Shown here: positions 2,916 through 14,012 of the stretch, piece after piece
Position numbering within the stretch: the first letter of the stretch is position 1
How the letters are laid out: the number at the start of each line of letters is the position of its first letter
NCBI GenBank assembly: GCA_947259315.1
Contig: CAMYLR010000024.1
Coordinates: 1 to 14,236, forward strand
DNA: 14,236 bases
Direction of reading: 5' to 3'
From: an uncultured Gemmatimonadales bacterium
GTDB taxonomy: Bacteria; Gemmatimonadota; Gemmatimonadetes; JACCXV01; JAHWKZ01
Notes under the pieces: model-generated
The model's input: only the letters and a program-made list of their open reading frames with translations
Database searches by the model: none
Told to the model about the DNA's origin: nothing
Position numbers and translations under genes: made by a program

Positions 2916-3839
2916 ATGGACATGCCAAAGCGATCCAGGCGGCTTTGCACGCTCATCGTAGCGGCGGTCGTTTTTACGCCCGTGCTCGGTATCGAGTTGC
3001 AAGCGCAGGACATTCAGCCGCTGGCCCCGGTACTGGAACCGAACGACCGCGAAGAGCCAGAGGACGGCGTCGAGACACCCAGCCCCGACGGGCCCGAGCT
3101 TATCCCGTTACCCGAAGCACCCAACCGAAACACGGCAGCGTCCAGAGATCGGATCCGCGTGACGACGGTGCTGCCGGCGTCGTGGAGTGGTGTCGTGGCC
3201 AGTTACCAACCGCTGTGGATCGGGATCCTGTCACCGAACGGCTTCGGCTTGCATCGCTGGATACCCTACTTCGCGTCGTCGGCGTTGGCCCCGGTGCTGA
3301 CAGCGCATCCGTTTTTTGGGCCGTGGGGGGTGCTCAGCTACGATGGCTGGATCCTCGACCGCTACCGCCAGGTCTGGGCCTCGGCCCAGCCACCGGAGCG
3401 ATTCGCTGAGGCCGGTCACTGGTTGCAGCTCGGGGATCGGGCGATGGCCGAGCGAAGCGCGACCGAGGCGGCCACCGCCTACCGCCACGTGACGCTTGTA
3501 GTTCCCGATTTTCCGCTGGGTTATCTCGGTCTCGGCGCGGCGCTGGCAGAGCTCGGCGACGACCTCGGCGCGGCACAGGCGTTTCGGCAGAGCCTCGATC
3601 GCTACCCGGCGTGGCTCGGGCTGGCCGTTGATTGGTCGCTCCTCTATGGCCGCCGGGACCGGCTCGAGGCGGTTCAAGCCGCCGCCGACCGACGTGCCGA
3701 GAGCGGGTCGTCCAACAGTCAGTTTGTGGCTGGCGTTTTGCACATGTTCGGTGACGATCCCACTCTGGGACGCGAACTGCTAAGCGGGCTCCCGGACGAC
3801 CCCCACGCTGTCCACTTGATGTCCCGAGGTCCCCGCTAG
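2916..3839 (+). CDS. Exported TPR-repeat protein of unknown function
   Basis: A 307-residue protein. Residues 1-31 look like a signal peptide (MDMPKRSRR, then LCTLIVAAVVFTPVLG, ending ELQAQ); there is no lipobox. Residues 32-75 are a Pro/Glu/Asp-rich linker. Residues 80-165 are an aromatic, Trp-rich region (LPASW, YQPLWIGILSP, HPFFGPWG, YDGWILDRY) that I cannot assign. Residues ~162-260 contain one or two TPR-like helix pairs (LGDRAMAERSATEAATAYRH, LGLGAALAELGDDLGAAQAF). The frame is open further upstream across the antisense of the lipoprotein gene, but AAGGA at 2903-2907 and the signal sequence select ATG 2916. It is transcribed towards the regulator and the Tad locus. No tadD gene (the usual TPR lipoprotein) is seen in the visible part of the operon, so this may fill a related scaffold role, but that is inference from position only. 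Confidence 0.75.
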   Translation: MDMPKRSRRLCTLIVAAVVFTPVLGIELQAQDIQPLAPVLEPNDREEPEDGVETPSPDGPELIPLPEAPNRNTAASRDRIRVTTVLPASWSGVVASYQPLWIGILSPNGFGLHRWIPYFASSALAPVLTAHPFFGPWGVLSYDGWILDRYRQVWASAQPPERFAEAGHWLQLGDRAMAERSATEAATAYRHVTLVVPDFPLGYLGLGAALAELGDDLGAAQAFRQSLDRYPAWLGLAVDWSLLYGRRDRLEAVQAAADRRAESGSSNSQFVAGVLHMFGDDPTLGRELLSGLPDDPHAVHLMSRGPR

Positions 3840-3866
3840 GCTACCCGAGCGGACGCTGACCGACCC

Positions 3867-3882
3867 GATCGCGGAAGCGATC
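3867..3882 (+). other. GATCGC/GCGATC hairpin with GGAA tetraloop
   Basis: A perfect 6-bp stem closes a GGAA loop (GNRA type) 27 bases after the TPR gene stop. It is followed by C and A runs rather than T, so it is a poor intrinsic terminator. It could be an mRNA 3'-end stabiliser. It lies just ahead of the candidate -24/-12 promoter of the next gene. Confidence 0.35.
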
Positions 3883-3892
3883 CCCCCAAAAC

Positions 3893-3907
3893 GGTACAGG
3901 ACTTGCA
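3893..3907 (+). promoter_or_regulatory. Candidate sigma-54 (-24/-12) promoter of the regulator gene
   Basis: The sequence CGGTACA-N4-TTGCA has GG at 3893-3894 and GC at 3905-3906, exactly the ten-base gap of the sigma-54 consensus TGGCACG-N4-TTGCA. The -12 box is perfect and four of seven -24 positions match. Transcription would begin near 3918, only about five bases before ATG 3923, giving an almost leaderless mRNA; no Shine-Dalgarno is visible ahead of that ATG, which fits. The match may still be chance. Confidence 0.35.
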
Positions 3908-3922
3908 GCTTCCGGTCGCGTC

Positions 3923-4909
3923 ATGAAGACCGAAAAGGACCTCGCTCTGGTTCTGCCCGATCTCCCCCCCGAAAGTGTCGCATCTGACTACTGGGAGATC
4001 GGCGCACACCCGAATTACCTGCTCAGCGTGAACGAGGACGTTGTCGGGGCGCGAGACCGGTTGTCGCAGGTTTCCGACACCTCGCTGACGGTCATTCTGT
4101 ACGGCGAACGTGGGGTGGGGAAGGAAGTCCTGGCGCACGGAGTCCACAGTCTCTCGAGCCGCGCCGAGAAGAGCTTCACAGCGCTCAACGCCTACGCAGT
4201 CCCGAGAGCTTCGATCGATCGCGAGCTGTTTGGTAACGGATACGGCGGAAAGCTTGACGGCGGCGAAGATGGGACGATGTACATCCACGGTATCGAGTCG
4301 CTCTCCCAGGACATTCGCGAGCGGTTGGTGGAGTGGAAGCGCGATCGTGAGAGCTCATCCGAACCGAGTGCGCGGATCATCCTGAGCTGCGAAGCGCCGT
4401 CGATGACCGCCGACGGACTGACGGAGCTCGAGCGGATGTGGGCGCCGGCCGGTGGCGCCGTGCGGGTCGAGATCCCCCCGCTGCGCGAGCGACCCGAGGA
4501 CATTCCGCTGTTAGCGACCCACATCGTCCAGAAGTATGGACCCTTCTACGGCTCCAGCATCCGAGTTCTCCGCGGTAGCTTCCTGCGCTTCTTGCAGGCC
4601 TACCAGTGGCCTGGAAACACGCGCGAACTCGAGCGGGTCCTGAGACGCTTTCTGGTGATCGAAGACGAAGAGGTGATCCGTGCCGAGTTGGGCAGCAAGC
4701 AGCCGGTGCAGGACACCTTCGACGACGAAGCCGAGACGGGGGGCTCGCTCAAGGCGATGGTCGCCCGCGCGGTGAGCCGGGTCGAGAGCCGCGAGATCGC
4801 ACGCGCATTGGAGCGCGCACGCTGGAACAAGAAGCGCGCGGCGGCAGACTTGGGGATCAGCTACAAGTCCCTCCTCAACAAGATCAAGCAGTACGAGATC
4901 GAGACGTAG
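3923..4909 (+). CDS. Degenerate NtrC-family (bEBP-like) regulator with Fis-type HTH
   Basis: A 328-residue protein with an AAA+ domain of the sigma-54 activator family but no receiver domain (only ~40 residues precede it). Walker A is intact (GERGVGKE, 61-68). After ELFG (101-104), where the family has the GAFTGA loop that contacts sigma-54, this protein has only GYGGKLD. The Walker B position reads TMYIHGI (118-124) instead of LFLDEI, so both acidic residues are lost. The usual FRxDLYYRLN arginine-finger stretch is replaced by LERMWAPAGG (169-178). PPLRERPEDIPLL (185-197) and YQWPGNTREL (227-236) are retained, and residues 296-324 form a canonical Fis-type helix-turn-helix (RARWNKKRAAADLGISYKS). 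ATP hydrolysis and sigma-54 remodelling are unlikely; ATP- or ligand-gated DNA binding is more plausible, perhaps TyrR-like. Its position directly before the pilus promoter region suggests it regulates the Tad operon. There is no Shine-Dalgarno before ATG 3923. Confidence 0.85.
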   Translation: MKTEKDLALVLPDLPPESVASDYWEIGAHPNYLLSVNEDVVGARDRLSQVSDTSLTVILYGERGVGKEVLAHGVHSLSSRAEKSFTALNAYAVPRASIDRELFGNGYGGKLDGGEDGTMYIHGIESLSQDIRERLVEWKRDRESSSEPSARIILSCEAPSMTADGLTELERMWAPAGGAVRVEIPPLRERPEDIPLLATHIVQKYGPFYGSSIRVLRGSFLRFLQAYQWPGNTRELERVLRRFLVIEDEEVIRAELGSKQPVQDTFDDEAETGGSLKAMVARAVSRVESREIARALERARWNKKRAAADLGISYKSLLNKIKQYEIET

Positions 4910-4933
4910 GAGCCGGGTTTCGGCTCTCGTTTT
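4910..4933 (+). terminator. Intrinsic terminator after the regulator gene
   Basis: Directly after the TAG stop, GAGCCG (4910-4915) and CGGCTC (4921-4926) form a 6-bp stem with loop GGTTT, followed by TCGTTTT. The compact GC stem and T-rich tail fit a rho-independent terminator separating the regulator from the pilus operon. Confidence 0.6.
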
Positions 4934-4949
4934 GCAACCGCGGTTGCAA
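4932..4949. promoter_or_regulatory. Perfect 18-bp palindrome, candidate operator
   Basis: TTGCAACCGCGGTTGCAA is its own reverse complement across all 18 bases. It overlaps the end of the terminator tail and lies about 225 bp upstream of the predicted start of pilin transcription. A symmetric site of this length is typical of a dimeric helix-turn-helix regulator; the adjacent Fis-type protein is the obvious candidate, though that pairing is inference. As RNA it could also form a second hairpin behind the terminator. Confidence 0.5.
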
Positions 4950-5058
4950 TTCCCCGAAAAGTCCGCCGTAACTGCATATCCCTCAATTCGTTAGCCGGGT
5001 TTCTCTGGGGCCAGGAAGGGCTTCTCGGACCCCCTCGACGGTACTCGATTCCATGATT

Positions 5059-5090
5059 GTGGAAAGCGTGTTCCACGGTGGTGTTCCACC
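5059..5090. repeat. Clustered TTCCAC half-sites, candidate upstream activating sequence
   Basis: GTGTTCCAC occurs twice (5068-5076 and 5081-5089), 13 bp start to start. A third, inverted half-site GTGGAA at 5059-5064 pairs with TTCCAC 5071-5076 as an 18-bp interrupted palindrome; GGTGG (5077-5081) also pairs with CCACC (5086-5090). The cluster ends about 50 bp upstream of the -24 element, roughly -78 to -108 from the predicted start, where sigma-54 enhancer-binding proteins usually bind. Confidence 0.45.
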
Positions 5091-5140
5091 GGGGCGCATC
5101 GGGCCGCCAAAACGCCAGGATCACCGCCCCGGGGGCGTTG

Positions 5141-5156
5141 TGGCACGCGAAGTGCA
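5141..5156 (+). promoter_or_regulatory. Sigma-54 (-24/-12) promoter of the Tad pilus operon
   Basis: TGGCACG (5141-5147), four bases, then GTGCA (5152-5156) differs from the consensus TGGCACG-N4-TTGCA at one position only. GG (5142-5143) and GC (5154-5155) are separated by exactly ten bases. Transcription would begin near 5167, leaving a ~40-base leader ending in a strong Shine-Dalgarno for the first pilin. It is the only near-perfect match noticed in the window and lies in its longest non-coding stretch (4910-5207), behind candidate activator sites. Confidence 0.7.
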
Positions 5157-5207
5157 TTTCCAGGGGGCGAGTAGCGTGTAACGACCAACCTCACGAACAG
5201 AGGAAGG

Positions 5208-5435
5208 ATGATCGCAAGAGTCGCAGAAACGCCCGGGCAAACTGGGGAAGCGGCAGTCCCGCGAACTCTCGGCAGTGCGCTGCGGGCTGATGAAGGACAG
5301 GACCTCGCGGAGTACGCGATCCTCATCGGACTTATCGCGCTCGTCGTGATTGGGGCGGTCACGCTGTTCGGAACACAACTAGTAGCGGCTTACAACAACA
5401 TCACAAACCAATTGCCGTTTGTCGGTGGATCGTAA
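5208..5435 (+). CDS. flp: Flp-type type IVb prepilin 1
   Basis: A 75-residue Flp pilin, the structural subunit of the Tad pilus. A 30-residue leader ends in ADEG and is followed by QDLAEYAILIGLIALVV: the prepilin processing motif G^xxxxEY with Glu at +5 and Tyr at +6, then the hydrophobic assembly helix. TadV would cut after Gly30, giving a 45-residue mature pilin with tail YNNITNQLPFVGGS. The leader is longer than is usual for Flp. ATG 5208 is immediately preceded by GAGGAAGG (5200-5207), a strong but closely spaced Shine-Dalgarno; no nearer in-frame start was seen. First gene behind the sigma-54 promoter. Its assembly helix is nearly identical to that of the second pilin, so the pair is probably a tandem duplication. 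Confidence 0.9.
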   Translation: MIARVAETPGQTGEAAVPRTLGSALRADEGQDLAEYAILIGLIALVVIGAVTLFGTQLVAAYNNITNQLPFVGGS

Positions 5436-5451
5436 GTCGAAAACCCCACGT

Positions 5452-5466
5452 GGCCCTGAGTGGGCC
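5452..5466 (+). other. Hairpin abutting the second pilin's Shine-Dalgarno
   Basis: GGCCC (5452-5456), loop TGAGT, GGGCC (5462-5466) form a 5-bp GC stem directly followed by GGGAGGA (5467-5473), the Shine-Dalgarno of the second pilin. It could affect mRNA processing or translation between the two pilins; short GC stems are common by chance in such DNA. Confidence 0.35.
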
Positions 5467-5481
5467 GGGAGGAAACAACTG

Positions 5482-5664
5482 ATGGTAGCACTTTGGAACG
5501 CTTTCTGGAACGATGAGTCGGGTCAGGACCTGGCTGAGTACGCGCTGTTGATTGCGCTGATCGCGCTGGTCGTGATCGCCGCAGTCACGCTGTTGGGTCA
5601 GAACATCAACACGGTGTTCACCAACATCGCCAACGCTCTGACTGGAGCTGCTGGCGGGTCGTAG
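5482..5664 (+). CDS. flp: Flp-type type IVb prepilin 2
   Basis: A 60-residue Flp prepilin. The leader MVALWNAFWNDESG (14 residues, typical length) precedes QDLAEYALLIALIALVV, again with Glu+5 and Tyr+6, so TadV should cleave after Gly14 to give a 46-residue mature pilin ending ALTGAAGGS. The frame is open back to 5419, overlapping the first pilin, but GGGAGGA at 5467-5473 selects ATG 5482. The short leader and good Shine-Dalgarno make this the more likely major pilin, with the long-leader copy as a minor or variant subunit; this ranking is inference. It is followed by two hairpins that probably limit read-through into tadV. Confidence 0.92.
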   Translation: MVALWNAFWNDESGQDLAEYALLIALIALVVIAAVTLLGQNINTVFTNIANALTGAAGGS

Positions 5665-5674
5665 TCACTACGAC
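5658..5674 (+). other. 7-bp hairpin across the pilin stop codon
   Basis: GTCGTAG (5658-5664) and CTACGAC (5668-5674) are perfectly complementary around loop TCA, and the TAG stop of the second pilin lies in the left arm. It may protect the 3' end of an abundant pilin mRNA. Confidence 0.45.
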
Positions 5675-5687
5675 TCTCCACCGAGGA

Positions 5688-5732
5688 GCCGGGGTCCGAA
5701 GCACGGGGGAACGGGCCCCGGCCTTCCTTGTT
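5688..5732 (+). terminator. Terminator or attenuator between pilins and machinery genes
   Basis: GCCGGGGTCC (5688-5697) pairs with GGGCCCCGGC (5713-5722) as a 10-bp stem with one G-T wobble and a 15-base loop, followed by CTTCCTTGTT. The stem is strong and the tail moderately T-rich. A leaky terminator here would give excess pilin transcript over secretin, ATPase and platform transcripts, a common arrangement. The rest of 5665-5789 shows no gene. Confidence 0.55.
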
Positions 5733-5789
5733 AGAGAACTCAAGATCCCCCCGGGTCGGGCCCAGGCCGATGGTTCTAACAATCAGGTC

Positions 5790-6299
5790 ATGATTCACAC
5801 GCTCAGCACTCTCGCGTTAACGGTCGTCGTGGTGTTGGCTGTGGCGTCTGATCTTCGCACCCGTCGCATCCCGAACGTACTGACGGTTTCCGGCTTGGGC
5901 GTCGCGCTCGCGCTGCGGGCGATGACCGGCGTCGATGCTCTTGTCGCGGGGTTGCTTGGCGGAGCGATCGCGCTTGGTCTAACCCTGCCGTTGGTGATGC
6001 TCGGCGGGTTGGGTGGTGGCGATTCAAAGCTGCTCGTCGCGGTCGGAGCGTTTCTCGGTCCCACAGGCCTCCCCATGGCCCTGCTCGTCACCGCGCTGGT
6101 CGGTGGCGCCATGGCACTGGGGTTGGTCGTGTACCGTGGAGTGCTCGGCGCGACTCTGCTGCACTGCTGGCAGCTGACTAGCCGGCTTTGGACCCCACGC
6201 GCCCCTGAACCTCTTCGGACCCTTGGAACTCCTGGCGCGGTGGCGATCCCGTATGGGGTCGCGATTGGGGCCGGGGCAATCGCAGGATGGATCCTATGA
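5790..6299 (+). CDS. tadV: TadV/CpaA prepilin peptidase (A24 family)
   Basis: A 169-residue multi-pass inner-membrane aspartic protease that removes prepilin leaders from Flp and TadE-type proteins. The two catalytic aspartates of the GxGD family are visible: Asp21 in ASDLRTRRIPN, just after the first membrane helix, and Asp78 in LGGGDSKLL. Both have their usual neighbours (R-x-x-x-IPN; GGGDxK). About five or six hydrophobic segments follow. It lacks the N-terminal methylase domain of PilD, as normal for TadV. ATG 5790 has only a weak CAGG upstream. The stop overlaps the tadE start as ATGA, so the two are translationally coupled. Confidence 0.92.
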   Translation: MIHTLSTLALTVVVVLAVASDLRTRRIPNVLTVSGLGVALALRAMTGVDALVAGLLGGAIALGLTLPLVMLGGLGGGDSKLLVAVGAFLGPTGLPMALLVTALVGGAMALGLVVYRGVLGATLLHCWQLTSRLWTPRAPEPLRTLGTPGAVAIPYGVAIGAGAIAGWIL

Positions 6300-6751
6300 A
6301 TTGCGAAATTCGTCGCTTTACCCGGCGCTTGTGCCGCCCCACCCCCGAAAAGGAAACAGGCCAGACCTTAGTCGAGTTCGCCCTAGTTATTCCTATCCTT
6401 TTGGCACTTGTCATCGGGATCTTCGAGTTCGGGCGAGCGTGGAACGTCTATCAGGTAATCACCAATACCGCTCGGGAGGGCGCGCGCCTTGCAGTCATAC
6501 CGAGCAGTGACGAAACCGGGGTACGGACCGCTATCGATCAAGGTCTCACGGCGGCCGCGCTCGATCCCGGCCAGAGCGTGGTGACGATCACCGGGCTTGG
6601 AGGCGGGACCGGGACCCCGACGACAGTACAGCTCGATTATCCGTACCAGTTTCAGTTCATAGGCCCGATAGTTGCGTTCCTGGACGGGCCCGATGACGAC
6701 ATGAACGGGGCGATCACCCTGTCGACGACCGTCATCATGCGTAACGAGTAG
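6296..6751 (+). CDS. tadE: TadE-like minor pseudopilin
   Basis: A 151-residue TadE-family protein. Gly22 followed by QTLVEFALVIPILLALVIGI is a class III prepilin cleavage site (Glu at +5, Phe at +6) and assembly helix; FEFGRAWNVYQVITNTAREGAR is the conserved TadE stretch after it. The ~85 C-terminal residues form a small soluble domain. TadE is known to be processed by the same peptidase as Flp and to be needed for pilus assembly. ATG 6296 is chosen over 6287 because it overlaps the tadV stop (ATGA) and AGGA at 6284-6287 is correctly spaced from it. It ends with TAG immediately followed by TAA. Confidence 0.9.
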   Translation: MNCEIRRFTRRLCRPTPEKETGQTLVEFALVIPILLALVIGIFEFGRAWNVYQVITNTAREGARLAVIPSSDETGVRTAIDQGLTAAALDPGQSVVTITGLGGGTGTPTTVQLDYPYQFQFIGPIVAFLDGPDDDMNGAITLSTTVIMRNE

Positions 6752-6764
6752 TAAACGCTCAACC

Positions 6765-6800
6765 AGTAGTAGCGAGTAAGCAAGTAGTAGCTAGTAAACG
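6765..6800 (+). repeat. Two tandem 18-bp repeats rich in stop codons
   Basis: AGTAGTAGCGAGTAAGCA and AGTAGTAGCTAGTAAACG lie end to end and match at 15 of 18 bases. A related piece, GAGTAGTAAACG, overlaps the tadE stop just before them. The gap 6752-6836 also holds a small hairpin (GCCTG 6809-6813, CAGGC 6818-6822) and the Shine-Dalgarno GGGAGG (6825-6830) of the next gene. The function of the repeats is unknown. Confidence 0.6.
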
Positions 6801-6836
6801 AGGGACAGGCCTGCTACCAGGCACGGGAGGAAACCA

Positions 6837-7646
6837 ATGAACCGCAAGCGTAGAAAATGGATGGCGCTCGTGCTGGCGCTCGTTTCGGGCGGCACGGCGG
6901 GCTATCTCGCGATGAATTACTTGCGTGAGCCAGTGCAAACGGCAGTCAGAAGTCAGCCCAGCGCCACTCAGGTGGCGGTAGCTGCGCGCGACATGCCGGT
7001 TGGATCGGTGCTGAGCTCCGCTGACATCAAGATGGTCGATTGGCCGAGCAACAACGTGCCGCCGGGCTACGCCAGAGACGCCCAAAAGATCGTGGGTCAT
7101 GGTTTGATTCAAGCGGTCAGCCTGAACGAGCCGCTGCTATCAGCCAAGATGGCCAGCAAGGAATCCGGTGGTGGCCTGCCGATCGTGATCCCGGAGGGGA
7201 TGCGTGCGGTCAGCGTCAAGGTCGACGAGGTGATCGGTGTGGCCGGTTTTGTCCTGCCGAGCACCAGAGTCGACGTGTTGGTGACGCTGAACCCGACCTC
7301 CGAGCGCGAAGCGGCGACGACGCGAGTGATTTTGCAGAACGTCCAGACGCTGGCCGCGGGCCAGACGATTCAGCGCGACGAAGAGGGTACGCCGCAAACG
7401 GTCACCGTTATCACGCTTCTCGTTACACCTGAGCAGTCAGAGAAGCTGACGTTGGCATCGACCGAGGGCCGGATCCATCTTGCGCTGCGCAACATGCTCG
7501 ACATGGAAGAGGTTGAGACCGATGGAGTTCGGGCCGGCACGCTCGTGCGTTCCGCTCGCCCCGTCCGCCGTGCCTCGACCCCACGTCGCGCCGGACAGAG
7601 AATCGTGACGTTCAACGGAACTCAGCGTACCGAAACCACCTTCTAG
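6837..7646 (+). CDS. cpaB: CpaB/RcpC pilus assembly protein
   Basis: A 269-residue inner-membrane-anchored periplasmic protein. Residues 8-27 form one membrane helix after a basic start (MNRKRRK). Residues ~44-108 match the SAF/beta-clip domain (VAVAARDMPVGSVLSSADI, then LNEPLLSAKM). The RcpC-like domain follows (~115-225), including GMRAVSVKVDEV.GVAGFVLP, RVDVLVT and VTPEQSEKLTLASTEGRIHLALRN, all typical of CpaB. The tail (residues 235-269) is basic and ends in RIVTFNGTQRTETTF. CpaB is thought to link the secretin to the inner membrane and modulate it. Start ATG 6837 is six bases after GGGAGG. It precedes the secretin gene with a 13-base gap. Confidence 0.93.
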   Translation: MNRKRRKWMALVLALVSGGTAGYLAMNYLREPVQTAVRSQPSATQVAVAARDMPVGSVLSSADIKMVDWPSNNVPPGYARDAQKIVGHGLIQAVSLNEPLLSAKMASKESGGGLPIVIPEGMRAVSVKVDEVIGVAGFVLPSTRVDVLVTLNPTSEREAATTRVILQNVQTLAAGQTIQRDEEGTPQTVTVITLLVTPEQSEKLTLASTEGRIHLALRNMLDMEEVETDGVRAGTLVRSARPVRRASTPRRAGQRIVTFNGTQRTETTF

Positions 7647-7659
7647 GCGGAGGCCAATC

Positions 7660-9042
7660 ATGAGAGCCAAAACCCCCAAACTCATCAACCGCCGTTGGCA
7701 CTTCTCGGCGCGCCTGCTCCCGCTCGTCGTCGGCATCGCTGTGTATGGCCTGACGCAGCCCGTCGCGGCAGCGGGACAGGCCGCCGGATCCCAAGAGGGT
7801 CGGACGGTCAACCTGGCCAAGGGTACCGCGCAGTTGGTTACCCATCCGGCCGCGATGCGTCGAGTGTCAGTGGCGAGCGCGGACGTGGCGGAAGCCGTCG
7901 TCGTGTCGCCCAACGAGTTGCTCATTCACGGGCGCGAGATCGGCACCACGAGTCTGGTGATATGGGATGCCGAGGGAGGGCGCACGCTCTACCCGGTCGA
8001 GGTCACCCTCGATGCGGCCGCTCTGGAGACCCACTTCCGAGCCCTGTTCCCCGACGAGCAGATCGAAGTGTCGGCCAGCGGCAACACGTACATCCTGTCA
8101 GGCAATGTGACCAACTCGACAACGGCTGAACGGGCGGTCGAAATCGCCGAAGCCAGCGAAGCGATGGTGGTCAACAACATGTCGGTGCCCAGGCCGCACC
8201 AGATCCTGCTGCAGGTAAGGTTCGCCGAGGTGAGCCGTACAGCGATGCAGGAGTTGTCGGTGAACTTCTTGTTGCTCGATCCGAACAACCCGCGGGGTGA
8301 CGACGAAGGTCTAATCTCGACGGGTCAGTTCAATCCGTTCAGCGAGAACTTCGTCAACTCGCGGCGCGGTCCCGAGTCGGCGTTCTCCGACAAGATCAAT
8401 CTGTTCTTGTTCCACGATAACGAGCGGTTTAGCGCGTTCATTCGCGCGCTTCAAAGCCAGGGTGACTTCAAGAGCCTGGCTGAGCCCAACTTGTTGGCGC
8501 TCGACGGTGTTGAAGCGTCGTTCCTGGCCGGGGGTGAGTTCCCGTTCCCGGTCTCGCAGGGACAGTCTGACGCCATCACGCTCATCTTCAAGGAGTTCGG
8601 GATCCGGCTGGTGTTCACACCCAAGGTGCAGAACAGCGGCAACATCAAGCTGAAGGTCGAGCCTGAAGTATCGACGCTCGATTTCGCGAGCGGCTTGCAG
8701 GCGTTTGGCTTCCAGATCCCGACGATCCTGTCGCGGCGGGCGACGACCGAGGTCGAGCTCAAGGACGGGCAGACCTTCGCCATCGCTGGCCTGATCGACA
8801 ACTCGATCGCCGAGAACCTGTCCAAGGTCCCGGTGCTCGGACACATCCCGATCCTGGGCAAGCTCTTCCAGTCGCAGGACCTGCGACAGAACCGGAGCGA
8901 GCTGCTCGTGCTGGTGACCCCGCGCCTGGTACAGCCATCGGATGACGCGCCGCCGATTCCGACCGGCGAGCCCGAGGATTGGAAGTGGAAGCGTTCGCTC
9001 AAGGAGTCCCCCGGTCAAACCGGAAGAGACGGAGGTGTCTAG
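7660..9042 (+). CDS. cpaC: CpaC/RcpA outer-membrane secretin
   Basis: A 460-residue secretin forming the outer-membrane pore for the Flp pilus. Residues 1-38 are a signal peptide. Residues ~47-117 are the pilus-type N-terminal secretin domain (GTAQLVTHPAAMRRVSVASA, ELLIHGREIGTTSLVIWD). A short BON-like segment lies at ~133-176 (YILSGNVTNSTTAERAVEIA). The secretin core (~180-424) carries ILLQVRFAEVSRTA, LAEPNLLALDG, ASFLAGGEFPFPV, the beta-lip region, TEVELKDGQTFAIAGL and the signature VPVLGHIPILGKLFQS...ELLVLVTPRLV. Its length is normal for CpaC. GGAGG at 7649-7653 sets ATG 7660. The short Pro-rich tail (428-460) has no recognised domain. No separate pilotin gene is seen. Confidence 0.95.
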   Translation: MRAKTPKLINRRWHFSARLLPLVVGIAVYGLTQPVAAAGQAAGSQEGRTVNLAKGTAQLVTHPAAMRRVSVASADVAEAVVVSPNELLIHGREIGTTSLVIWDAEGGRTLYPVEVTLDAAALETHFRALFPDEQIEVSASGNTYILSGNVTNSTTAERAVEIAEASEAMVVNNMSVPRPHQILLQVRFAEVSRTAMQELSVNFLLLDPNNPRGDDEGLISTGQFNPFSENFVNSRRGPESAFSDKINLFLFHDNERFSAFIRALQSQGDFKSLAEPNLLALDGVEASFLAGGEFPFPVSQGQSDAITLIFKEFGIRLVFTPKVQNSGNIKLKVEPEVSTLDFASGLQAFGFQIPTILSRRATTEVELKDGQTFAIAGLIDNSIAENLSKVPVLGHIPILGKLFQSQDLRQNRSELLVLVTPRLVQPSDDAPPIPTGEPEDWKWKRSLKESPGQTGRDGGV

Positions 9043-9045
9043 CAA

Positions 9046-10197
9046 ATGACGCGTACACTTTCGGGCCGAAAGACCAACCCCCTTAACAGCGAGCGCGGGA
9101 GCTCCGCGATCCTGGTGGCGATTACGATGACCGCGCTGTTGTCAGCGGTCGCGCTGGCGGTCGACGTGGGCATGCTGCTCAACTCGAGGAGCGAGGCTCA
9201 ACGTGCGGCCGACTCGGCCGCGCTGGCCGGTGCCGGTTCGCTGCTGATCGACGAGGACAATGAGCCTCGAGCGCGCAATACCGCCATTCAGTATGGGGGC
9301 ATGAACACGGTCCGAAAGGACGCGGTTACGGTTCTACCCGAAGACGTCGACGTCGATCTGGCGTTGGCCCGCGTCACCGCGCGGGTGCGCCGGACGGAAG
9401 ATCGTGGCAGTGCGGTCGCGACGTGGTTTGCCAATGTGTTTGGTGTCGACGAGGTCGACATCGCCGCGACCGCCACGGCCCAGGTGCAGCCAGCCGGCCG
9501 GGCGACGTGTGTCAAGCCGTTCGCCATTCCGGATCAATTCCTGGACATGGACGGAGACGGTGAGTTCGACGAGGGGATCGACCAGTACGACCCCAACGTC
9601 CACGGCTACGGCTCCGACTGGCGCAACCCCGGGAGTCCCGGCGACGATCTCGAGGGCTTCATCAATGACTTTGGGCGACAGGTCGACCTGAAGCAGGGTG
9701 GGCCGGTGAATTTCCAGCCCAGCTGGTACTACCCCTGGGATGTGCCCGATGCCGAGGGCGCACCATCCACTGGTGGTGCGCGCTACCGTTGGAACATCGC
9801 CAACTGCAACACGGCCGTCATCTCGCTCGGCGAGGAGTACTGGATCGAGGGTGGAAACATGAACGGCCCGACCCGTCAGGGCGTGCACGACTTGATGGAC
9901 CTCGACTCGGGTGCGTACTGGGACACGTTCTCAAACGCGGTCGAGGGCAGTGACTGGGCTCCCAACTGGGAGGGCAGTCCTCGGGTCGGCATCATCCCGG
10001 TGTTTAACCCGTCACGCGAGTTTGATCCGGGCAAGCAACCGATTGAGTTCACGAATTTTCTCGCCGTCTTCTTCGAGGACATTCAGGGAGGCGGTCAAAA
10101 CCAGCAGGTCATTGGACGGATCATGTATGCGTCCGGTATCGGTGGCGGCAATGGCGGCACCGCTCCGGGCATCAGATTCGTGCAACTGGTCGAGTAG
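9046..10197 (+). CDS. tadG: TadG-like pilus protein with Ca-binding-type Asp loop
   Basis: A 383-residue protein whose N-terminus matches the TadG-like pilus domain: RGSSAILVAITMTALLSAVALAVDVGMLLNSRSE, with one membrane helix (~19-41) followed by AQRAADSAALAGAG, typical of TadG/TadE-related proteins. The rest is predicted periplasmic and not of the von Willebrand type seen in some TadG proteins. It is rich in Trp, Gly and Asp. Residues 167-179 read DMDGDGEFDEGID, resembling EF-hand or thrombospondin-3 calcium loops. Cys155 and Cys264 may form a disulfide. The secretin gene ends three bases before it; GGAGG at 9031-9035 gives a rather long ten-base spacing to ATG 9046. It could be an envelope scaffold or a tip/adhesion component. 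The N-terminal assignment is firm; the C-terminal role is unknown. Confidence 0.82.
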   Translation: MTRTLSGRKTNPLNSERGSSAILVAITMTALLSAVALAVDVGMLLNSRSEAQRAADSAALAGAGSLLIDEDNEPRARNTAIQYGGMNTVRKDAVTVLPEDVDVDLALARVTARVRRTEDRGSAVATWFANVFGVDEVDIAATATAQVQPAGRATCVKPFAIPDQFLDMDGDGEFDEGIDQYDPNVHGYGSDWRNPGSPGDDLEGFINDFGRQVDLKQGGPVNFQPSWYYPWDVPDAEGAPSTGGARYRWNIANCNTAVISLGEEYWIEGGNMNGPTRQGVHDLMDLDSGAYWDTFSNAVEGSDWAPNWEGSPRVGIIPVFNPSREFDPGKQPIEFTNFLAVFFEDIQGGGQNQQVIGRIMYASGIGGGNGGTAPGIRFVQLVE

Positions 10198-10213
10198 CTA
10201 AGCGAGGTACCCC

Positions 10214-11512
10214 GTGACCGATAACACCCCCATCAGCGGCGCCGTCATATCGACGGACCCCAAGTTCCGGGCCGTCTTTCACGGCAACGGCGATGGTGAG
10301 ACACAACCGGTCGAGGTGGCGTTCGAGATCATCGTCCCCTTCGCCGAAGTCAGCCACGGCCACCTCGAGGAGCTGAGGGTCGTCCAACCCTCGATCGTGT
10401 TCATCGACCTCGAGGACGACCCGATCCTCGGCTGCAAGCTGGCGCAGTTCCTGGTCGAGACAAACCCGGCGCTGCGGTTGGTCGCGGCGGGCACGGATGG
10501 GTCACCCGAGTTCCTGATGACGGTGATGCAGGCCGGCATCAGCGAGTACTTGCCGAAGCCGGTCACCGAAGATGCACTGGTGGCGGCGATCGGCCGCGTC
10601 AGTCGTAAGCTCGGCGCCAAGGTCACCCAGGCCGCGGGTCCGGCTCGACGCGAGCCCGGCAAGCTGTTGGCTTTCTTTGGCACCAAGGGCGGGTCTGGTT
10701 CCACGACGGTCGCCACGAACCTGGCGATCCAGGTCCACCGCATGACCGGCAAGCGAACGGTGCTCGTCGACCTCGACCTCGAGCTCGGTGAGATCGCGCT
10801 CTATCTCGGTGTAGAGCCGCGGTTCAACTTCGTTGACTTGGCCAAGAACTTTCACCGCATGGACGCCGGTCTGCTGGCCTCGTTTATCGAGTGTCACGAC
10901 TCCGGCGTACACCTGCTGTCTGCTCCGTATCATCCGGAGCGGGCGGAATCGGTGACCGCGGATCACGCCAAACAGATCATCCAGTTCTTGAAACAGCACT
11001 ACGAGTACGTCTTCGTTGACGTCTCGAACTCATTTTCGGCGCGAACGTTGGCGGCTTTTGAAAAGGCCGACGAAGTGTACCTCATCGCCACCGCCGACCT
11101 GCCATCGCTGCGCAACATCCAGCGCTGCCAACATCTGATCGGTCGGTTGTCCAACATCGGTGAGCTGCGGTTGGTGGTAAACAGGTATCACCCCGACTGC
11201 GACATCACGCTCGAGGATGTCGAAAAGTCGATCGGGATGGAGATCTACTGGGCCCTGCCGAACGACTATCAGTCGGTCATCTACGCTATCAACACGGGTC
11301 AGCCGGTCATCCTCGATGACAGCAGCCCCTATACGCACGAGCTCGAAGCGCTGGCCGCAAAAATGACCGGCCTGCCGAGTGCGAGCGCGCATCGCAAGGG
11401 GTGGTTCTCCCGCAAGGTGGTGGATCCCTTGAAGAGTTTCCTTGGTACGGAGGCCGATGAGGAAGAGGCCCTCATGCTGCCGCCGGCCGTAGTCGGAGGT
11501 GAACGCGCGTGA
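10214..11512 (+). CDS. tadZ: TadZ/CpaE pilus-localising ATPase with receiver-like domain
   Basis: A 432-residue MinD/ParA-superfamily protein that places the Tad complex at its cellular site. Residues ~10-135 form a receiver-like domain (IVFIDLEDD with Asp65 at the phospho-acceptor position, [13 protein letters not shown] with Lys115), lacking the usual N-terminal acidic pair. The ATPase domain starts at ~150 with KGGSGSTT (158-165), a Walker A variant in which the signature lysine of KGGxGKTT is Ser; such variation is known in TadZ/Cpa[13 protein letters not shown] (181-192) and YVFVDVSN (265-272) follow as switch and Walker B regions. The start is GTG 10214 with GAGGT (10204-10208). The stop overlaps the tadA start as GTGA. 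The C-terminal ~40 residues are a charged tail. Confidence 0.9.
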
Positions 11513-13008
11513 GCGACAACAAAGACCCGTACACGATCCCGCTGTTCTCTGAAGAGGGCGCGGTGAACAGGGAGAAGCTGCCCTGGGACGGCGCCGAGGA
11601 CGGCGGAGCCGAGACAGGCACCACAGCTACGGAACCCATCGAGCCTGCGGGGTTCGATCCGGACGAGTTTGATCCGGAGATGGTTTCCATATCGCCCGAC
11701 GGCATACAGCGGGGCGATGACACCACGCACGAGATCAAGAGCCGGATTCACAAGCTGCTGCTCGAGAGGCTGAACCTGACCAACCTCGACCAGTACGATC
11801 AGGATCAGGTGGTGGCCGAAATCCGGAAGGTCGTCCAAACCTTGCTCGATCAGGAATCGGCGCCGCTCAACTACGACGAGCGCGAGGCGTTGGTCGAGCA
11901 GGTCTTGCACGAGATCTTCGGTCTCGGACCGCTCGAGCCGTTGCTCCAAGACCCGACGGTTTCCGACATCCTCGTCAATACGTACGATGACGTTTTTATC
12001 GAGCGCGACGGCAAGCTCGAAAAGACGGACGTCCGGTTCAAGGACGATCGGCACTTGTTGCAGGTCATCGACCGCATCGTGTCCGCAGTGGGACGTCGAA
12101 TCGATGACTCGAGCCCGATGGTGGACGCGCGGCTGGCCGACGGGTCACGTGTCAACGCGGTGATTCCGCCGCTGGCGATTGATGGACCACACGTTTCGAT
12201 TCGTAAGTTCAAGAAAGATGCGTTGTCGGCGGAGGACCTGCTGCGGTACGACACGATGACGCCTCAAATGCTGGAGCTCCTTCAGGGTATCATCAAGGCT
12301 CGCCTGAACACGTTGATCTCGGGCGGTACCGGCTCGGGTAAGACGACTCTGCTCAACGTGTTGTCGTCCGCGATCCCGGTCAACGAGCGCATCGTGACGA
12401 TCGAGGACTCGGCCGAGCTGCAGCTTCGTCAGCCCCACGTCGTGCGGTTGGAGACGCGGCCGCCAAACGTCGAGGGTTTGGGCGAGGTCCCGGCGCGTCA
12501 GCTGGTGATCAACGCGCTGCGTATGCGACCCGACCGCATCATCGTTGGTGAGGTTCGTGGTGCAGAGGCGGTCGACATGTTGCAGGCGATGAACACCGGA
12601 CATGACGGCTCGCTGACCACGCTTCACGCGAACGCTCCGCGCGACGCGATGAGCCGGCTCGAGACGATGATCGCGATGGCGAACCTGAACCTGCCCGACA
12701 AAGCGATGCGGCAGCAGATCGCCAGCGCAATGGATGTGATCATCCAGGTCAACCGCATGGCCGACGGAACACGCCGATTGATCTCGATCTCCGAGGTCGT
12801 GGGGATGGAAGGCGACGTGATCACGATGCAAGACATCTTCGTGTTCGAGCGTCAGGGGATCGATGAGAACGGCAAAGTCATCGGACAGTTCAAGGCCACC
12901 GGGATTCGGCCCCGATTCGCCGAACAGCTAAAGACCTGCGGCATCGACCTGCCGACCGCCATGTTCTCGAACCTCGAGTACGGCCACTCGACCCAAGAGG
13001 AAGCCTAA
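11509..13008 (+). CDS. tadA: TadA/CpaF pilus assembly ATPase
   Basis: A 499-residue hexameric secretion ATPase of the VirB11/CpaF family that drives Flp pilus polymerisation from the cytoplasmic face. The N-terminal ~70 residues are an acidic, low-complexity extension. A helical N-domain follows ([28 protein letters not shown]). Core motifs are all present: Walker [10 protein letters not shown] (272-280), Asp box VTIEDSAEL (296-304), Walker [10 protein letters not shown] (343-351) and His box [12 protein letters not shown] (364-375). The start is GTG 11509 with GGAGGTG (11495-11501) seven bases upstream, overlapping the tadZ stop; its stop overlaps the tadB start as TAATG. No degenerate catalytic residue is seen. 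Confidence 0.96.
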
Positions 13009-14012
13009 TGGATCGCGTAATGGACCAACTTCCCCCCAACGTGATGCTGGCGATCCTCGTGTTCGCAGCGGTGGCGTGCGCGGTCATCGTCCTCGCTGTG
13101 TTGTGGGAGTGGTGGGGTGACCGGAAGCGTCAGCGCGACCTAGCCCGACGCTTGGCGGGCGTTGAACCCAGCGCTGAGGGGCAAGGCAGCGACCCGTTCG
13201 GTGATCTCTTCAAGGAGGCGACGAGCGCTGATGTCAAGTGGCTGCAGCCGGTTGTAGCCCGAGTCCCCCATACGAGAGACCTGCAGCATCTGCTCGACCA
13301 GGCCGACATGCCGTGGCAGGTAGGGACTTTCTTGCTCATCACGATCGGCGCGGCGATGGCCTTTGGTACGATGGCGCTGCTGATCACGAACAACACGATG
13401 GTAGCGATCGCGGCAGCCGCGCTCGCGGCGGCGTTGCCATATGTCTACGTGCGGCGTCGCAAGACCAAGCGATTGCGGGCTTTTGAGGAGTGCTTCCCGG
13501 AGTCGATCGACCTGCTGGGGCGAGCGATCCGAGCCGGTCACGCCTTCTCGACTGGACTGCAGATGGTGGCCGACGAATCGCCAGAGCCGATCGCCGGAGA
13601 GTTTCGTCGGGTTTTTGAGGAGCAGAAGTTCGGTTTGAGCATAGACGATTCGCTGCTCGCACTGGCGGATCGGATCGAGCTCGTCGATATGCGAATCTTC
13701 GTTACGGCGGTTCTTATCCAACGCGAGGTGGGTGGTAATCTGGCTGAGATCCTCGACAAGATCTCGTATACGATTCGCGAGCGGTTCACGATTGAGCGAC
13801 AGGTCCGGGTCTACACCGCCCAGGGCCGTTTCACCGGATACCTGTTGGGTATCCTGCCCATCGCCGTTGGCTTCTTGATCTTCCTGTTGAACGGCGAGTA
13901 CATGACTGTGCTCTGGGAGAGGGACATCGGCCGCATGCTGATCTCTATTGCCGCCGTGCTTCAAGTCATCGGTTTCTTCGTGATCCGAAAAATCATCAAC
14001 ATCGAAGTGTAG
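13008..14012 (+). CDS. tadB: TadB inner-membrane platform protein
   Basis: A 334-residue polytopic protein with one type II secretion F-domain (T2SSF). Membrane segments lie at about residues 11-33, 105-124, 127-145, 275-296 and 306-326. The cytoplasmic F-domain (~160-270) holds ECFPESIDLLGRAIRAGHAF, ADESPEPIAGEFRRVFEEQK, AVLIQREVGGNLAEILDKI and IRERFTIERQVRVYTAQGR, the standard TadB signature. It is known to form, with TadC, the platform on which TadA acts. ATG 13008 overlaps the tadA stop (TAATG), so a ribosome can re-initiate directly. Confidence 0.95.
   Translation: MDRVMDQLPPNVMLAILVFAAVACAVIVLAVLWEWWGDRKRQRDLARRLAGVEPSAEGQGSDPFGDLFKEATSADVKWLQPVVARVPHTRDLQHLLDQADMPWQVGTFLLITIGAAMAFGTMALLITNNTMVAIAAAALAAALPYVYVRRRKTKRLRAFEECFPESIDLLGRAIRAGHAFSTGLQMVADESPEPIAGEFRRVFEEQKFGLSIDDSLLALADRIELVDMRIFVTAVLIQREVGGNLAEILDKISYTIRERFTIERQVRVYTAQGRFTGYLLGILPIAVGFLIFLLNGEYMTVLWERDIGRMLISIAAVLQVIGFFVIRKIINIEV

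Follow-up and report, generated by a model that had tools for sequence, protein, structure and literature searches.

A bEBP relative lacking catalytic and sigma-54 contact motifs, encoded beside a conserved sigma-54 pilin promoter in one family of Gemmatimonadota

REG is a paralogue of the sigma-54 activators (bEBPs) that has lost loop L1, loop L2, Walker B, and both arginine fingers, yet has been kept by strong selection next to the conserved sigma-54 promoter of a pilin gene. It is encoded in a 14,236-nucleotide stretch of DNA, referred to here as the window, from an uncultured Gemmatimonadales bacterium. The reading we prefer, to which we assign a probability of about 40%, is that REG is a non-hydrolysing, cis-encoded modulator. 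It would bind a dyad beside its own gene and tune the sigma-54 promoter of the pilin gene flp1, which would be fired by another bEBP. REG would more likely be a brake than a booster, although this direction is a guess.

The REG protein: motifs kept and lost

The gene for REG (3923..4909, forward strand) is an open reading frame of 328 amino acids with an ATG start codon. The protein is a stand-alone bEBP-like regulator and matches the Pfam families Sigma54_activat (E 5e-15), AAA_lid_14 (8e-19), and HTH_8 (6e-11). No N-terminal sensor domain was found by Pfam in REG, and about 40 residues precede the AAA+ core. Against the NCBIfam equivalogs for NtrC-type activators, REG scored far under the cut-offs. 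A structure model was built with AlphaFold2 from an alignment of 35 sequences. Its mean pLDDT is 80, with values mostly of 85-94 across the AAA+ core and the HTH and values below 50 for residues 1-31. The model matched NtrX, LuxO, NtrC1, FleQ, and PspF with Z-scores of 22-23, and VpsR with 21.9; VpsR was also the second-best PDB sequence match. REG belongs to the sigma-54 activator (bEBP) fold, with the AAA+ Sigma54_activat domain, the lid, and the Fis HTH all present.

Motifs were compared at 74 positions that at least 85% of a set of about 120 canonical bEBPs share, and 40 of the 74 are retained by all four REG orthologues described below. Walker A (GERGVGKE, residues 61-68, 4103..4126, forward strand) is invariant in the four, with G61, E62, G64, G66, K67, and E68 kept. 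All four also keep N89 in the switch Asn column, the PPLRxRxxD segment, and an invariant WPGN-REL with R234 of sensor II. The Fis-type HTH that gives the HTH_8 match (residues 285-328, 4775..4906, forward strand) contains NKKRAAADL, again invariant in all four orthologues. The kept set is made up of the nucleotide-binding residues (Walker A, switch Asn, sensor II), the lid, and the HTH.

The losses are likewise common to the four orthologues. The GAFTGA loop is deleted, which removes the FTGA columns, and the Gly of loop L2 is gone. At the Walker B position (TMYIHGIE, residues 118-125, 4274..4297, forward strand), both acids, D and E, are replaced by H122 and G123, giving YIHGI. The arginine fingers, which are the two Arg of the FRxDLYYR segment, are missing as well; the columns of PspF R162 and R168 read E/E/E/E and A/A/A/V. 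For comparison, the catalytic set of PspF is D107, E108, R162, and R168 (PMC12054792). A preliminary description of this DNA had listed Walker A, the PPLRER region, sensor II, and the Fis-type HTH as kept, and GAFTGA, Walker B (as YIHGI), and the arginine fingers as lost. Both lists proved accurate, and the Gly of loop L2 is a further loss.

Because the nucleotide-binding set is kept and the catalytic set is lost, REG is predicted to bind ATP without hydrolysing it and, we infer, is unable to make the usual contact with sigma-54. The kept residues suggest that ATP-bound REG would form a dimer or a small oligomer. The motif losses argue strongly that REG would be unable to open the sigma-54 holoenzyme, and flp1 would therefore need another activator.

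Another possible explanation of this pattern is that REG enters the hexamers of an activator, where it would accept a neighbour's arginine finger, offer none in return, and stall the ring. Such a cap would be expected to be one-sided, with Walker A and sensor II retained but the arginine fingers gone, as in REG, and hetero-oligomers of paralogous bEBPs are known (VnfA1-VnfA3, HrpR-HrpS, and FleQ-FleT; PMC9542535). However, REG is only about 30% identical to the other bEBPs of its genome and carries many non-catalytic changes in the AAA core (the L136, R137, and Q132 columns), which makes the compatibility of its interfaces with other bEBPs doubtful. We regard a stalled mixed ring as decidedly unlikely.

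Orthologues, distribution, and origin

REG orthologues were found in four genomes, which represent three genera of one Gemmatimonadota family: the window genome (G000), G001 (96% identity to G000), G002 (67%), and G003 (64%). We looked for an intact GAFTGA and Walker B in these close orthologues, which the preliminary description had said would speak against its proposal. Neither is present in any of the four, and the motif losses are identical in 4/4. Between G000 and G001, Ka/Ks for REG is 0.032, the lowest among six neighbouring genes, with a Ka of 0 for the lid and 0.02 for the HTH. The large loss of activator motifs could by itself be taken as the mark of a decayed or mis-assembled activator without function. 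This is barely credible for a gene with an intact frame and HTH that is found in three genera at 96-64% identity with the same losses and a Ka/Ks of 0.03; the shared losses and the Ka/Ks rule out decay or sequence error.

A profile search of 395 genomes of the phylum detected no REG in the 391 others. The profile scored 634 bits for the orthologues and dropped to 150 bits for ordinary bEBPs. Neither REG nor the Tad protein CpaF was detected in G004 (only 81% complete) or G005, the order's other two genomes, and the presence of REG thus tracks the Tad locus in the order's six genomes. No viral copies of REG were found. A role as a phylum-wide Tad regulator was rejected, since 78 of the 395 genomes have a CpaF match and REG occurs in this family only. 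REG is likely a family-level addition to the Tad locus.

The surroundings of REG are stable. A gene that is TPR-like by inspection (2957..3839, forward strand, provisional start codon) lies 84 bp before REG, in an order kept in G001, G002, and G003. Downstream of REG, also on the forward strand, lie flp1, the Flp/Fap pilin gene flp2 (5482..5664, Pfam Flp_Fap), and a tad operon (5790..14012) whose genes were assigned by Pfam and synteny as TadV, TadE, CpaB, CpaC, TadG, CpaE, CpaF, and TadB. The order TPR-REG-flp1-flp2-tad is retained in G002 and G003 and, in G001, as far as the contig end.

A second tad cluster is located about 10 kb past the first (L116:10255-19001; G000 C24:24254-33000). Its genes include at least four of flp type and two that are TadG-like; only a weak -24/-12 site (p 0.2) was found before its first flp. 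Between the two clusters, before the second flp set, a 1434-aa histidine kinase is encoded (L116:5750-10054; HAMP, PAS, HisKA, HATPase; AtoS/NtrY-like). An AAA protein with weak family matches only (L116:1326-2924) follows the TadC-like gene of the first cluster.

In a quick tree of the lid and HTH, REG groups with L037, L037b, L069, L123, and L123up at a provisional support of 97% SH-aLRT. L037 and L123 are contigs that, as read from their translations, carry polysaccharide genes and adjacent bEBP pairs. REG may descend from polysaccharide-locus bEBPs of this type, with long-branch effects a possible influence on the placement. Two other origins were considered and set aside. Canonical bEBPs also precede flp in two other families (L178, L184), but their clade is not that of REG, and a grouping of REG with the six bEBPs of its own genome is unsupported in the quick tree. 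The bEBP pair at L037:2224-4740 adjoins nucleotide-sugar genes, and its second member, L037b, is a stand-alone protein with GAFTRA and FLDQI.

REG could also be a helper, that is, a positive partner that an active bEBP would require at flp1, serving as a DNA anchor or a non-catalytic subunit. HrpR/HrpS and FleQ/FleT, which like REG have no N-terminal sensor domain (PMC9542535), are paralogues that act together at sigma-54 promoters; L037, in the same clade as REG, pairs an intact bEBP with an altered stand-alone one; and REG follows the Tad locus through the six genomes of the order. In contrast to REG, which has none of the motifs needed for hydrolysis or sigma-54 contact, HrpR and HrpS retain all activator motifs (PMC7057263), and no partner bEBP gene adjoins REG. 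We consider a helper role unlikely.

The flp1 promoter and candidate operators

flp1 (5208..5435, forward strand) encodes a Flp-type pilin of 75 aa. The top-scoring -24/-12 site before it is TGGCACGCGAAGTGCA (5141..5156, forward strand), and its position is conserved: in 4/4 genomes, 67-70 bp separate the best site of the REG-flp1 gap from the flp1 ATG downstream. The four sites are TGGCACGCGAAGTGCA, TGGCACGCGAAGTGCG, TGGTACGAGCGCTGCC, and CGGTACGGCCGATGCT, with shuffle p values of 0.001, <0.001, 0.04, and 0.07. A looser -24/-12 pattern gave 3 matches against 1.5 expected in the window alone, which is not significant, and the weight of the promoter call thus rests on conservation. The preliminary description had placed REG directly upstream of this promoter. 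The site is there in all four genomes, but 231 bp separate the REG stop codon from the -24 box.

A consensus terminator scan of 3600-5900 called nothing. The scan thus did not call a weakly terminator-like hairpin that was seen by eye just 3' of REG (4910..4926, forward strand; GAGCC-GGGTTTC-GGCTC, then TCGTTTT). Two moderate -24/-12-like sequences, at 3727-3742 and 3766-3781 inside the end of the gene preceding REG, could be due to chance.

The window genome encodes one rpoN, the gene for sigma-54, and six canonical intact bEBPs. Among the Tad loci of other families in the class, about nine that lack REG show a fair -24/-12 site upstream of flp, and two have an ordinary bEBP upstream. Since such REG-less loci also have the site, sigma-54 control of Tad pilins is probably older than REG in this class. 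The idea of an unusual control switch for Tad pili in the preliminary description is partly supported: a sigma-54 promoter does stand beside a stable bEBP relative, but the promoter itself is not peculiar to REG. A literature search with partial coverage found no paper that describes a Tad locus under sigma-54 control, which is weak evidence.

Two dyads in the REG-flp1 gap are candidates for regulator binding. The first, the P site (4932..4949), is a perfect 18-bp palindrome, TTGCAACCGCGGTTGCAA, the sole zero-mismatch match in the genome. As TGCAA-N6/7-TTGCA, it has 1 mismatch in G001 and G002 and 2 in G003, and it lies 208, 208, 279, and 280 bp from the -24 box across the four genomes. The P site is a candidate operator private to this locus. 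It was rejected as a genome-wide box, with one full-match site and similar numbers of weak matches for a control pattern. The second, the D site (5059..5076; GTGGAAAGCGTGTTCCAC, GTGGAA-N6-TTCCAC), is the sole exact copy in the 2.4-Mb genome and a candidate enhancer (UAS). Its distance to the -24 box is 81-82 bp in one genus but 127 bp in both others. Out of 1024 5-bp dyads tested over the four intergenic regions, the three best conserved were TTCCA, TGGAA, and TGCAA. Each dyad alone is weak in G002 and G003 (shuffle p 0.01-0.17, spacer 5-7), so this conservation is a footprint and not proof.

Elsewhere, D-type copies with 0-1 mismatches in G001 C210, G002 C165, and G002 C30 have a -24/-12 site scoring 13-17 at 88-186 bp downstream. 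Most other exact or one-mismatch copies sit within long frames. At the other Tad promoters of the class, no D-type dyad was seen save a weak one in L179. In G002 C165, two perfect tandem copies of GTGGAA-N6-TTCCAC (L233:3538-3577) stand ahead of a -24/-12 site at 3724, which in turn precedes an outer-membrane-like gene; polysaccharide-type genes, as judged by inspection, are next to them. In G002 C30 (2245-2262; L253:1046), a one-mismatch dyad lies 138 bp before a near-perfect -24/-12 site, TGGCACGAGGATTGCC, and the frame that reads through downstream is prolyl oligopeptidase-like by inspection.

The copy in G001 C210 precedes a type IVa pilin gene. In the window genome, the corresponding gene (pilA; L163:4194-4556, reverse strand, G000 C19) has the -24/-12 promoter TGGCACCCGTCTTGCG, and an intact bEBP is encoded directly upstream of it (L163:4806-6284, reverse strand in L163; G000 C19:73814-74731). 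In G000 and G001, a relative of the D-site dyad (1 or 2 mismatches) precedes the pilA -24 box by 88 bp, compared with 82 bp at flp1; the G000 copy has 2 mismatches (shuffle p 0.05). The layout of bEBP, -24/-12 promoter, and pilin is common to the pilA locus and REG-flp1, and is the order known for PilR and other pilA-adjacent bEBPs. In contrast to the disarmed REG, which stands before a Tad (Flp) pilin, the pilA-side bEBP keeps REC, GSFTGA, and Walker B (LDE). Because the adjoining pilA has a related dyad and a parallel layout, the pilA-side bEBP is the best candidate for the true flp1 activator. The separate activator supposed in the preliminary description is plausible in this respect, with an intact bEBP beside pilA and a related dyad at a similar distance.

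Modulation in cis, the reading we prefer, could then proceed as follows. The Fis HTH of REG would recognise a dyad in the REG-flp1 gap, with 4932-4949 the simplest choice and the D site (5059-5076) a possible second. A canonical bEBP, for which position and the related dyad point to the pilA-side protein, would activate flp1. REG would occupy or reshape the enhancer region and so tune this activator, which would allow the Tad pilus to be controlled independently of the type IVa pilus. It seems very unlikely that REG is instead a dedicated dead subunit, one that would join or cap the rings formed at the Tad promoter by the pilA-side activator. In that arrangement, one activator would serve two pili and its dead paralogue would set the Tad share.

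Relation to known bEBPs without GAFTGA

With its bEBP homology, absent GAFTGA, and intact DNA-binding domain, REG fits the class of GAFTGA-less bEBPs, although the N-terminal signal domain of that class (REC in VpsR and NtrC) is absent. TyrR, DhaR, HupR, and YplP resemble REG in being bEBP homologues whose sigma-54 contact loop is not usable. Their N-terminal domains and targets are different, and they are not known to stand beside a sigma-54 pilin promoter. The defective GAFTGA of these four was described by Francke et al. 2011 (PMC3162934). The kind as such is already known, since about 110 of roughly 5000 bEBP homologues deviated in GAFTGA in that survey (PMC3162934). NtrC of Rhodobacter capsulatus and Caulobacter likewise has a deletion around GAFTGA in a recognisable NtrC-type protein but, unlike REG, has a REC domain and a cognate kinase. 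Walker B matters in Caulobacter NtrC, where the D235A variant did not sustain growth in defined medium (PMC10274813); REG, by contrast, lacks both Walker B acids. VpsR of Vibrio cholerae combines the bEBP fold with no GAFTGA and an altered Walker B (LND for LDE), and regulates a surface structure. It differs from REG in having a REC domain, binding c-di-GMP, and acting at sigma-70 promoters, whereas REG lacks an N-terminal domain and lies at a sigma-54 promoter.

Counting against modulation in cis is that GAFTGA-less bEBPs of known role mostly act at sigma-70 promoters (PMC10274813); no sigma-70 scan result points to a REG target here. REG could do the same in the manner of VpsR, R. capsulatus NtrC, or TyrR and activate or repress housekeeping promoters, its own or distant ones such as those of polysaccharide genes, with the neighbouring sigma-54 promoter not a target. 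The closeness to VpsR in sequence and fold and the grouping, in the quick tree, with bEBPs of which two, L037 and L123, lie in polysaccharide loci both favor such a role. However, REG has a conserved position beside a sigma-54 promoter in four genomes and lacks the REC domain of VpsR and NtrC. The c-di-GMP residues of FleQ are Arg185 after Walker A, plus Arg144 and Arg334 (numbering of PMC10723142). Our comparison covered the Arg185 position, which is His72 in the REG of the window and G001 and Arg in G002 and G003. A scan of 3600-5900, of little power in this phylum, found no sigma-70-like promoter. Overall, we consider a sigma-70 role rather unlikely.

In the literature covered, we found no description of the combination seen in REG, with no L1, L2, Walker B, arginine finger, or sensor domain and a fixed place before a sigma-54 pilin promoter. 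If REG acts at flp1, it would show that sigma-54 transcription can be regulated by a pseudo-AAA+ subunit, and it offers a clean natural way to ask what the AAA+ module does besides hydrolysis. The presence of related dyads before both pilA and flp1 also suggests that type IVa and Tad pili may be connected in this phylum, which has been little studied. Disarming has also occurred independently in a separate REC-AAA-HTH family from Granulosicoccaceae and a Chromatiales symbiont (L097, L103, L109, L112, L113, L115), which has lost GAFTGA, the Walker B acids, the arginine fingers, and the sensor II Arg.
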